The translations under genes and the position numbers were made by a program. From the NCBI RefSeq assembly GCF_023555385.1, contig NZ_JAJSED010000001.1, positions 1,647,501 through 1,711,500 on the forward strand: a stretch of DNA of 64,000 bases, written 5' to 3'. The DNA comes from Guyparkeria hydrothermalis (GTDB taxonomy: Bacteria; Pseudomonadota; Gammaproteobacteria; Halothiobacillales; Halothiobacillaceae). Below are positions 7,584 to 62,572 of the stretch, in pieces (the first letter of the stretch is position 1; each line of letters starts with the position of its first letter). The notes under the pieces were generated by a model, which was not told the DNA's origin, did not search any database, and worked only from the letters and a program-made list of their open reading frames with translations.

Positions 7584-7615
7584 TCGTTACACTGGGAGCC
7601 TTTGCGCGCGGTGAA

Positions 7616-7745
7616 GTGTCCGCCGCCGTTGATTCTGCAACCTTCAGCGAGTCGGAAAGCGCTTAGCGGCAAGGCATGTCTCGCCGTGAATGGCAACGTC
7701 CTTCACAAGAGACATAACGCCGCCGATGAGCGCTTTCCGGCTCGC
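7616..7745 (+). repeat. structured repeat, family II, copy L
   Basis: About 130 bases with a repeat-specific fold. It opens with a 20-base box starting gtgtccgccgcc. Stem P1 follows (7647-7663 with 7729-7745, 17 bp including one G-U), then a conserved ggcaaggc linker. Stem P2 (7676-7682 with 7709-7715) closes a conserved apical loop beginning ccgtgaatggcaacg, and a conserved aacgccgc block precedes the P1 3' strand. The second copy lies immediately downstream in inverted orientation. The same boxes occur there at the same spacing, but the stem sequences differ and still pair. No coding potential was recognised. It fills the 379-base gap between the TlpA-like gene and map. Confidence 0.75.
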
Positions 7746-7750
7746 CCTCC

Positions 7751-7880
7751 GGGAGCGCGCCTGAGCCGACATTGCGGCGTTGCACCCCTTGCGAAGGACG
7801 TTGCCATTCACGGCAGAGCGCGCCTTGCCCTGTCGGCTCAGGCGCGCTCTGAATGTCACGGAATCAACGGCGGCGGACAC
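7751..7880 (-). repeat. structured repeat, family II, copy R
   Basis: Reverse-strand partner of the copy at 7616-7745, separated from it by five bases. The 20-base opening box is identical (7861-7880 on the plus strand), and so is the apical block (7793-7813). Its P1 stem (7831-7848 with 7753-7770) is a perfect 18-bp helix of a different sequence from copy L. Its P2 stem pairs GCGCUCU with GGGGUGC, using three G-U wobbles that exist only when this strand is read as RNA. The two copies together make a 265-bp locus with perfect terminal inverted repeats, immediately upstream of map. Confidence 0.75.
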
Positions 7881-7923
7881 TAGCGCCGCGGCTGACACAG
7901 TCAGGGGAGCCCGTTTCCAGGTC

Positions 7924-8682
7924 ATGAACATCTCCATCAAGACCCCCGAGGAAATCGAGAGGATCCGCATTGCCAGCCAGCTGGCAGCGGAGGTGCTGGT
8001 GCTGCTGCGCGAGCACGTCAAGCCCGGCGTGACCACCGGCGAGCTCAACGAAATCGCCCACAAGCACATCACCGAAGTCCAGGGCGGCACACCGGCCACG
8101 CTCGGCTACCACGGCTTCCCCGCCTCGATCTGCACCTCGCTCAACCATCAGGTCTGCCACGGCATCCCGGCTGACAAGACCTTGCGTGACGGCGACATCC
8201 TCAATATCGACGTCACCGTGATCAAGGACGGCTGGCACGGCGACACATCGGCGATGTACACGGTCGGCAAACCGTCCGTGCGCGCCCAGCGCCTGATCGA
8301 CGTCACCTACGAGGCCATGATGAAGGGCATCGAGATGGTGCGCCCCGACGCGACCCTCGGCGACATCGGCCACGCCATCCAGACGCATGCCGAAGCGAGC
8401 GGCTTTTCCGTGGTCCGCGAATACTGCGGCCACGGCATCGGCCGCAACTTCCACGAGGACCCGCAGGTGGTCCACTACGGCAAGCCGGGCGAAGGCGTGC
8501 ACCTCAAGGAAGGGATGGTGTTCACCATCGAGCCAATGATCAACGCCGGCAAGAAGGAGATCAAGCTGCTGGGCGACGGCTGGACGGTGGTCACCAAGGA
8601 CCACTCCCTGTCGGCCCAGTGGGAGCACACGGTCGCCGTGACCGCGGACGGGGTCGACATCCTCACCCAGCCGCCGGCCTGA
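7924..8682 (+). CDS. map: type I methionine aminopeptidase
   Basis: Removes the initiator methionine from nascent proteins. The 252-residue protein shows the metal-ligand set of the family: DILNIDVTVIKDGWHGD with the two Asp ligands, GHGIGRNFHEDP with His, FTIEPMIN with Glu, and SAQWEHTVAVT with the last Glu. The substrate-binding YHGFPASICTSLN segment is also present. The ATG at 7924 begins MNISIKTPEE, typical of proteobacterial Map; open frame upstream of it belongs to the repeat. The gene is followed after four bases by glnD. In other gammaproteobacteria map is often linked to glnD, which supports the pairing. Confidence 0.97.
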   Translation: MNISIKTPEEIERIRIASQLAAEVLVLLREHVKPGVTTGELNEIAHKHITEVQGGTPATLGYHGFPASICTSLNHQVCHGIPADKTLRDGDILNIDVTVIKDGWHGDTSAMYTVGKPSVRAQRLIDVTYEAMMKGIEMVRPDATLGDIGHAIQTHAEASGFSVVREYCGHGIGRNFHEDPQVVHYGKPGEGVHLKEGMVFTIEPMINAGKKEIKLLGDGWTVVTKDHSLSAQWEHTVAVTADGVDILTQPPA

Positions 8683-13880: not shown

Positions 13881-14108
13881 GCCCCTTTTCTTGCGTGTCC
13901 AAGAAAAGGGGCAAAAAGAAGGACACCCCACGCCCTGGCCCTTCGGGCCTTCTTCCCCGGACCGTCGTCCGGGAAAGAAGCCTTGCGACCGGCGGCTGGC
14001 TTCGGGGTCGGCTCAACGTGACCTCCTGTCACGCCGAGCCTCAGAGCGACGTCCATGTCGCTCCGACCCCGATCCACCCACCGGTCGCAAGGCAGGACGA
14101 CAAGGGGG
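13881..14108 (+). repeat. structured repeat, family I, copy A
   Basis: A hairpin-rich element. H1 is a 13-bp stem (13881-13893 with 13900-13912) with loop cgtgtc. A ggacacccc block and a tggcccttcgggc block follow. H2 is a two-part stem (ggctc/gagcc and cgtgac/gtcacg, 14010-14040) around a ctcct loop. H3 is a 7-bp stem (14044-14050 with 14057-14063) with loop gtccat. A conserved tail near gacaagggg ends it. Three other copies in the window have the same order of parts with different but complementary stem sequences. It runs head-on towards copy B. Confidence 0.75.
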
Positions 14109-14199: not shown

Positions 14200-14420
14200 C
14201 CCCTTGTGCCTTGCCTCGCGGGCGAGGGATTGCAGGGTCTGGCCGGCATGGACGCCGGCCAGAGGTTCGCCGCGACAGGACGTCGCGTCGAACCGACCCG
14301 TCCGCAATCGCTCGTTCGCGAGGCCGATCGGCGCGGATGCAATCCGTGACGATCGGGCCCGCAGGGCCAAGGTATCGGGGTGTCCTTCTTTTGGTCGGTT
14401 TTCTTGGACAAGCAAGAAAA
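14200..14420 (-). repeat. structured repeat, family I, copy B
   Basis: Inverted partner of copy A. Read on the minus strand: H1 (14399-14406 with 14413-14420) has loop cttgtc. H2 is ggttcg/cgaacc plus cgcgac/gtcgcg (14264-14294). H3 is a 10-bp stem with loop gtccat (14238-14263). The tail is ggcaaggcacaagggg. From H1 to H3, copies A and B have the same length, 183 bases. The stems of H1, H2 and H3 differ from those of copy A by paired changes. Confidence 0.75.
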
Positions 14421-41235: not shown

Positions 41236-41946
41236 TCATGGTGCCGGCTTCAGTTCATTCAGGTCCCATAGCGGCTCGACGACGCTCCAAACGTTTTCGA
41301 GCAGTTGCTTCTGTCCCTCGGCATTCGGATGCAGACCGTCTTCAAGCATTAATTCGCGGTCACTGGCCGCCCCTTCGAGCAGGAATGGCAGGCCCGGCAG
41401 GTCGTTCGTCTCGGCGAGGCGCGCGTACATGGCGGCGAAGGGATCGGCGTAGGCCGGGCCGTAGTTGGTCGGCAGCATGATGCCCAGCAGCACCACCTTG
41501 GCACCACGGGCCTCGACGCGGTCGATCAGGGTCTGCAGGTTGGCCTGGATGACATTTAGCGGCAGGCCGCGCAGGCCATCGTTGGCGCCCAGCTCGAGCA
41601 GCACCCAGTCGTAGTCGCCGGTCTCGAGCACCTCGGGCAGGCGGGTGAGCCCGCCGGAGGTGGTCTCGCCGCTGGCCGAGGCGTTGGTCACCTCGAAACG
41701 CCCTGGCGCCTGCGCATCGAGCCGCTCGCGCAGCAACGCGACCCAGCCGTCCTCGGCCGGAAGCTTGTAGGCTGCCGAGAGCGAGTCACCGAACACCAGT
41801 ACCTGAGTTGACGCGTGGGTCGGCGCGGGCGGGGTGTCGTCACCTATACTCGCGCCGACTCCGAAACACAGCAGCAATAGGGCGCCTTGAAAAATCGTCG
41901 CGAGCGAGCGAAGGACAAGGCGGGCGGAGCACAGCGACCGAGACAT
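41236..41946 (-). CDS. tesA: SGNH-family esterase/lysophospholipase (TesA-like)
   Basis: Periplasmic acyl-CoA thioesterase I/lysophospholipase L1/arylesterase family, 236 residues. An N-terminal hydrophobic segment (FQGALLLLCFGVGA) serves as signal peptide. The SGNH blocks are GDSLSAAY (Ser), Gly in ASGETTSGG, GANDGLRGLP (Asn) and DGLHPNAEGQ (Asp/His). I place the start at ATG 41946 because the frame upstream is low complexity. It is divergent from the ABC operon next to it, the usual TesA-YbbA-YbbP arrangement of E. coli, which supports the name. Confidence 0.87.
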   Translation of the reverse strand: MSRSLCSARLVLRSLATIFQGALLLLCFGVGASIGDDTPPAPTHASTQVLVFGDSLSAAYKLPAEDGWVALLRERLDAQAPGRFEVTNASASGETTSGGLTRLPEVLETGDYDWVLLELGANDGLRGLPLNVIQANLQTLIDRVEARGAKVVLLGIMLPTNYGPAYADPFAAMYARLAETNDLPGLPFLLEGAASDRELMLEDGLHPNAEGQKQLLENVWSVVEPLWDLNELKPAP

Positions 41947-42068
41947 ATCATGCAGATAGGCGAGGGAGCGAGCACCGCCCAACGCCGTCATTCGTGCGCG
42001 CAGCAGGTTTTTCGAGGTGCCCACCAGCCCGGCGATGCCGGCCGGCCATTGATATCCGAGCATTCCCC

Positions 42069-61965: not shown

Positions 61966-62161
61966 ACTTTCTATTGCTTGTCCAATAGAAAGTCCCCAAA
62001 GACAAGGACACCCCGGCGCCTTGGCCCTTCGGGCTTCCCTCGTCACCGCCGGGTTGCGAACGGGTCGGTTCGACGCGACCTCCTGTCGCGGCGAACCTCT
62101 GGGCGGCGTCCATGCCGCCCAGACCCTGCAACCCGTCGGCAACGAGGCAAAGCGCAAGGGG
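61966..62161 (+). repeat. structured repeat, family I, copy C
   Basis: Same architecture as copy A. H1 is an 11-bp stem (61966-61976 with 61983-61993) with loop cttgtc. A ggacacccc block and a tggcccttcgggc block follow. H2 is ggttcg/cgaacc and cgcgac/gtcgcg around ctcct (62067-62097). H3 is a 10-bp stem with loop gtccat (62098-62123). The tail ends gcaaggggc. It points at copy D. From H1 to H3 it is 158 bases, shorter than A and B because the middle segment is reduced. Confidence 0.75.
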
Positions 62162-62373: not shown

Positions 62374-62572
62374 CCCCTTCGCCCTTGCCGAGCGGCCGGG
62401 GTGACGCAGGGACGGCGCAACAAGGACGTTGCGCCGAGGTTCGCCGCGACACGACGTCGCGTCGAACCGTGCCCGTCCGCGGCAGCACGGACGGGAGGGA
62501 AGCCCGCAGGGCCAAGGCGAGGGGTGCCCTTCTCTTTGGGCCCTTTCTCTTGGGCAAGCAAGAGAAAGGGCC
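62374..62572 (-). repeat. structured repeat, family I, copy D
   Basis: Inverted partner of copy C. H1 is a 14-bp perfect stem (62539-62552 with 62559-62572) whose minus-strand loop is cttgcc. H2 is ggttcg/cgaacc and cgcgac/gtcgcg (62438-62468). H3 is ggcgcaac/gttgcgcc with loop gtcctt (62414-62435). The tail is ggcaagggcgaagggg. H1-to-H3 length is 159 bases, within one base of copy C. Confidence 0.75.

Follow-up and report, generated by a model that had tools for sequence, protein, structure and literature searches.

About 40 nt upstream of the start codon of map, the gene for methionine aminopeptidase, the window (the whole stretch of 64,000 nucleotides from Guyparkeria hydrothermalis that was analysed) contains a compact element with inverted ends (Table 1). 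Its terminal inverted repeats are 33 nt long and 88% complementary, and they close a three-arm structure made up of the outer stem P0 and the hairpins L and R. Both hairpins contain GGCAAGGC, the apical block GCCGTGAATGGCAACGTCCTTC and AACGCCGC at identical spacing. An earlier note on this DNA had described these shared blocks, their places and spacing as well as the P2 pairing with three G-U pairs in R, and all of this is present in the sequence. The P1 stems described there are indeed unrelated in sequence and self-complementary within each half; their length is 19 bp and not 17–18 bp. The note took L and R for two separate elements spanning 7616–7880, but they are the halves of one element with inverted ends at 7615/7617 and 7879/7881, followed by CTAG at 7880–7883.

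Table 1. Features of the element upstream of map and of related structures in the window
Feature	Position	Strand	Characteristics and basis
Whole element (TGTCCGCC...GGCGGACA)	7617..7879		263 bp; inverted ends, site empty in congeners, family alignments
Left counterpart of CTAG: GAAG	7613..7616		
Left terminal inverted repeat = outer stem P0	7615..7647	+	holds the 5' box; TTCAG at its end, then P1
20-base box GTGTCCGCCGCCGTTGATTC	7616..7635		reverse complement at 7861..7880
Hairpin unit L	7646..7745	+	P1 19 bp; core GGC-AA-GGC / AAC-GCC-GCC; P2 ATGTCTC/GAGACAT; apical GTGAATGGCAACGTCCTTCAC
Spacer separating hairpins L and R	7746..7750		read from sequence
Hairpin unit R	7751..7849	-	P1 19 bp, sequence unrelated to that of L; same core; P2 GCGCTCT/GGGGTGC
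Right terminal inverted repeat	7849..7881	-	end-to-end complementarity
CTAG, likely right-hand target sequence	7880..7883	+	proposed for the window copy from CTAG/YTAR flanks of relatives
map (methionine aminopeptidase), first gene downstream	7924..8682	+	ORF; orthologues in 10 congeners
TwoAYGGAY inverted pair	13970..14103 and 14204..14327	- and +	
Single-hairpin relative	41882..42022	+	core and bulges without partner
TwoAYGGAY inverted pair	62028..62157 and 62407..62477	- and +	

The element is absent from the orthologous site in five congeners (G001, G003, G004, G007 and G010). In G001 and G003 the interval from TTTGCGCGC to ACACAG measures 18 nt; it is likewise 18 nt in G000 when the element is subtracted. 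A spreading element, as suspected in the earlier note, is borne out by this insertion polymorphism. A promoter-like TTACACT, conserved in congeners, is located upstream of the insertion, and therefore the element is probably part of the map leader. The GAAG found as left counterpart of CTAG might be a decayed duplication, or it might never have been a duplication. No Pfam match was found for the 93-aa ORF that runs over the element. The window element shares several properties with MITEs: it is short (263 bp) and non-coding, has terminal inverted repeats, occurs in dispersed multiple copies and shows insertion polymorphism.

According to a codon-usage ORF score, all 43 scorable insertions of the family are intergenic. 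The genes flanking them are co-directional in 26 cases, divergent in nine and convergent in eight, which is about what is expected from random intergenic insertion. The lack of a preference for gene orientation therefore argues against a specific cis-regulatory role.

Fold and covariation in the genome and across the class

Both hairpins fold better than their dinucleotide shuffles (z = -6.2 for L and -4.6 for R, with none of 200 shuffles equal). The genome itself (2.39 Mb) carries six such units at five loci. In these six units 13 of the 31 pairs show changes on both sides and 95% of the cells are paired; none of 500 shuffles reaches the observed covariation, and the pairing falls to about 40% when the register is shifted by a single column. 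The pairing in L and R is not due to chance, and the covarying structured pair reported in the earlier note is real.

To follow the family further we used a covariance model (R2) built from units of a sister genus only (subfamily S3, see below), with a cut-off of E <= 1e-5. This independent model recovers hairpin L with 60.2 bits (E 9e-15) and hairpin R with 70.5 bits (E 9e-18), the E-values being rough, as are those of the model R1. The latter was built from the six own-genome units and gives L 97.1 bits, L being part of its input. Across 276 gammaproteobacterial genomes, R2 matched 63 genomes, belonging to 49 of 215 genera and in many cases containing more than 10 copies. Adjacent matches lie tail-to-tail in 39 of 41 cases, with a start-to-start spacing of mostly 103–108 nt. 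Since this geometry is not built into R2, it is a feature independent of the model, and inverted pairing, in which the earlier note had seen a possible part of how such elements spread or work, belongs to the build of the element.

The earlier note had named copies with unpaired P1 or P2 as evidence against the structure; in 96 distinct class-wide units 96.4% of the pair cells are intact, and double changes occur in 23 of 26 pairs. Covariation amounts to 0.746, compared to 0.204 in shuffled alignments and at most 0.111 with a slid register, in class-wide alignments that were fitted to the model. The sequence of P1 is almost random across the class, while the core CAAGGC...GCAATGG...CCTTG...AACGCC is fixed. 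The ends differ completely among subfamilies (CTAGTACTCTTTCAAGG, CTAGTGTCCTGTC, CTAGTGTAGTG, TATTAACCCGGCAAC, TTACTAAGAC); they form near-perfect inverted repeats and most of them lead into TTCAG and then P1. A single unit duplicated by inversion, with stems paired by chance, is ruled out by the independent copies and the independent model.

The only plasmid match was found in an unannotated intergenic stretch of pAcX50f from Azotobacter chroococcum (71.7 bits), and the E. coli, phage and viral contig sequences searched gave no match. With Rfam at the gathering cut-off, the window yielded only TwoAYGGAY RNA, located elsewhere in the window, and no match to the element; a relaxed scan of the element and its relatives gave miRNA-type chance matches far below the cut-off. 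No description of these elements was found in the open literature searched, and the paper on the Guyparkeria pangenome is silent on transposons and on repeats of this kind; a name for them may already exist elsewhere, for instance as a MITE entry in ISfinder. This is a real, class-wide and apparently undescribed family.

The window also contains a relative with a single hairpin, which has the CAAGGCG...AACGCCGTC core and the bulges and scores 28.5 bits with R2 (E 1.8e-5; fold z = -5.7). It suggests that single and paired elements may together form a larger superfamily. In genomes with high copy numbers (G201, G213) many contigs terminate within these elements, and therefore short-read assemblies under-count the copies.

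Subfamilies, target sites and mobility

A search with R1 in 27 genomes of the bacterial family yielded 374 matches in 16 of them, with a maximum of 64 per genome. The copies fetched are nearly all composites of about 263–270 bp with inverted ends of 32–36 nt. They fall into three local subfamilies according to their ends: S1, the commonest one, with GGAAnnTCTGCACGAWTC, S2 with TGTCCGCC, to which the window copy belongs, and S3 of the sister genus with TGTACTGTTTCG. S1 elements are flanked by 4-bp duplications with the consensus CTAG/YTAR, and identical non-palindromic flanks (TTAG, TTTA, CTTG, CAAG, CTGG) were also found; a reading as 2-bp TA duplications has been superseded by this one. The sister genus contains a complete IS5-family IS of 1211 bp with GGAAGGTCTG ends and TTAA flanks, the transposase of which matches NF033581 (298 bits). 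MITEPsy1, a Pseudomonas syringae element ascribed to ISPsy2, likewise has GGAAGGTCTG ends and a CTAG/YTAA duplication (PMC3189936), and a YTAR target has also been given for IS5 (PMC10359306). Because its GGAAGGTCTG ends and its CTAG/YTAR duplications match the IS5-family IS and MITEPsy1, S1 is, judged by sequence, an IS5/ISPsy2-type MITE. Both kinds of MITE are non-coding and multi-copy; MITEPsy1 has a length of 100 nt with 18-nt ends, whereas S1, 266 bp long, has two structured hairpins between its ends. Unlike MITEPsy1, the window copy ends with the S2 sequence, which is not shared with IS5-group IS, and in contrast to its S1 relatives it has CTAG on the right side only.

At loci L135 and L143 of genome G016 we observed a complete 1211-bp IS5-family IS with GGAAGGTCTGATC ends, and a 227-bp MITE, bounded by GGAACCTCTGATTGAATC and flanked by CTAA, that adjoins another IS end. 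IS630 (PF13358), considered as a local mobiliser, was found in no own-genus genome, and these genomes contain just one DDE_Tnp_1 match. No long autonomous copy bounded by the ends was found in the three genomes scanned for ends. In another genome (G009) the 5' box has a 92% match, which is due to chance and has no hairpin. Ends and flanks mark the family as non-autonomous, MITE-like elements.

It might also be considered that the elements move as single-stranded DNA, in the fashion of REPINs, with the help of a hairpin-recognising HUH/Y1 RAYT-like transposase, the strand bias described below then reflecting folding of single-stranded DNA. REPINs also combine two inverted hairpins into one mobile unit and reach high copy numbers in gammaproteobacteria (PMC3116915); a strand-specific wobble would fit single-stranded DNA as well, and a target duplication is not evident at the window copy. 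However, the present family differs from REPINs in its length of about 265 bp, in its core, in its long terminal inverted repeats (33 nt in the window copy) and in the 4-bp target duplications and ISPsy2/IS5-like ends of S1, and the GTAG-type motif at the hairpin base of REPINs is absent, with the TTCAG junction in its place. We regard this route as quite improbable.

Old insertions persist, to judge from an S2 element located directly upstream of a tRNA gene that is common to G004 and G002 (L105, L106). The stems of these orthologous elements differ by compensatory and wobble changes, and the core has been lost from the second hairpin.

Strand asymmetry and proposed renewal of the stems

In the model-fitted class-wide alignments, G-U pairs exceed A-C pairs by far (P1 102:5, P2 37:7, P3 41:1; in sum 180:13), and 49 of the 96 units have a U-G wobble at one specific position of P1. 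For S1 we used a tree-based count of events in registers defined by Watson-Crick pairs, raw counts fitted to R1 having overstated the G-U bias of the partner hairpin. This count gave 57:24 for hairpin A, 41:38 for the partner hairpin and 23:28 for the ends, and in the ends 70 of 160 changes were double changes from one Watson-Crick pair to another. The preference for G-U is evidence supporting folding as a single strand; it does not settle that this strand is RNA, because single-stranded DNA, too, can form a G-T wobble. The earlier claim that the element is not a DNA palindrome but a transcribed RNA thus agrees with the class-wide excess and with hairpin A of S1; the partner hairpin and the ends of S1 do not follow it, and the claim is not established.

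Whole elements can be inverted in place, which was observed in two of seven orthologous sets. The same S1 insertion lies in opposite orientation in different species (L006 compared to L074/L070 and L005 compared to L094), with identities of 92.1% and 93.6% after reverse complementation and of 52.8% and 51.3% as they stand. PMC8604942 describes template switching between inverted arms as a process that homogenises the arms and inverts the spacers, and template switching has been reported to create and maintain hairpins (PMC8794818). Since the ends evolve in concert and the elements flip in place, this process explains part of the covariation.

Thus, the elements might be DNA palindromes without any RNA function, in which template switching between the arms during replication, and a requirement of transposition for symmetrical DNA, keep the stems perfect and the cores serve as sites for the transposase or an accessory protein. 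The recorded mechanism, the flipping in place and the S1 counts for ends and partner hairpin all agree with such a scheme, and the ends are well explained by template switching. What it leaves unexplained are the asymmetric AA/AAC bulges, which stay uncorrected, the fixed wobble position and the absence of reversed hairpins: although the P1 arms lie closer together than the ends of the element, no hairpin reversed relative to its element or within its P1 arms was found among the copies aligned. Together with the class-wide G-U excess and the bias in hairpin A of S1, this makes a pure DNA palindrome somewhat unlikely. We conclude that homogenisation at the DNA level and selection on a single strand are both at work, and this strand is likelier to be RNA than single-stranded DNA.

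The identity of P1 between the two halves averages 0.29–0.35, compared to 0.66–0.75 for the cores, and S3 gives a similar picture. Identical P1 stems would cross-pair and collapse the three-arm fold, so the dissimilarity of the stems probably reflects a constraint on the design and is not a sign of separate origins.

A proposed mobile hairpin payload among known repeat families

Correia (CREE/NEMIS) and ERIC elements resemble the present ones as non-coding intergenic palindromes that have terminal inverted repeats and are able to fold if transcribed. The end sequences and the sizes differ, and neither Correia nor ERIC elements have a conserved module of two hairpins whose stems covary and are randomised in sequence. 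By analogy, the module could be a read-through RNA that acts as generic double-stranded RNA, for instance as RNase III site or mRNA stabiliser, and has no specific ligand. The intergenic insertions and the very stable folds would suit this, and RNase III acts on Correia elements (PMC2649163). A generic stem, however, needs no class-wide conserved core, no bulges and no wobble position, which makes this explanation unlikely.

The reading we favour, with a probability of slightly more than one half (roughly 0.55), is a non-autonomous MITE-like element that is mobilised in trans, carries two hairpins as payload, functions as a single strand and has arms that are renewed and then selected. The payload would be two inward-facing hairpin modules and not a gene. 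DDE-type transposases would move the copies in trans, reading only the outermost bases and the CTAG/YTAR target; for S1 this may be an ISPsy2/IS5-type enzyme. The module would act in folded, single-stranded form, most probably as an RNA derived from read-through or from flanking promoters, and a putative protein would bind its conserved core, that is the AA/AAC bulges flanking GGC/GCC, the GCAAUGG...CCUUGC apical stem and the P1 U-G wobble. Pairing of the arms would be renewed by template switching between them and subsequently held by selection, and different P1 stems would prevent pairing between the halves. Against this proposal count the absence of a G-U bias in the partner hairpin and ends of S1, the lack of an orientation preference and of an autonomous copy, and the missing left CTAG at the window copy.

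The earlier note had set the element apart from another family of inverted pairs in the window; that family is TwoAYGGAY RNA (RF01731), and the two are indeed not related. Both occur as inverted pairs in the same genomes and sometimes adjoin each other, but in TwoAYGGAY the 5' ends face each other, in the present element the 3' ends, and there is no match in sequence or structure. The TwoAYGGAY pairs are enclosed by inverted repeats and adjoin S1 elements at three loci (L098, L101 and L126); they look as if they might be mobile as well.

In a wider and more tentative version, which we consider possible but doubtful, these would be class-wide selfish elements with a function of their own and with paired protein-binding structured RNAs, or single-stranded DNA hairpins, as sole payload. 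Transposon vehicles that differ in their ends would have exchanged the module, and template switching would continually rewrite the stems of the module but leave its core and geometry conserved.

The presence of RNA-type covariation in about one fifth of the sampled gammaproteobacterial genera, missing from Rfam, reveals a gap in the annotation of both mobile elements and non-coding RNAs. Hundreds of copies with inverted, homogenised arms provide a natural experiment in which selection on an RNA fold can be compared with the maintenance of hairpins by template switching, an open question for the covariation-based discovery of RNAs. Should a protein bind to the core, the element would be a ready-made class-wide probe for that protein.
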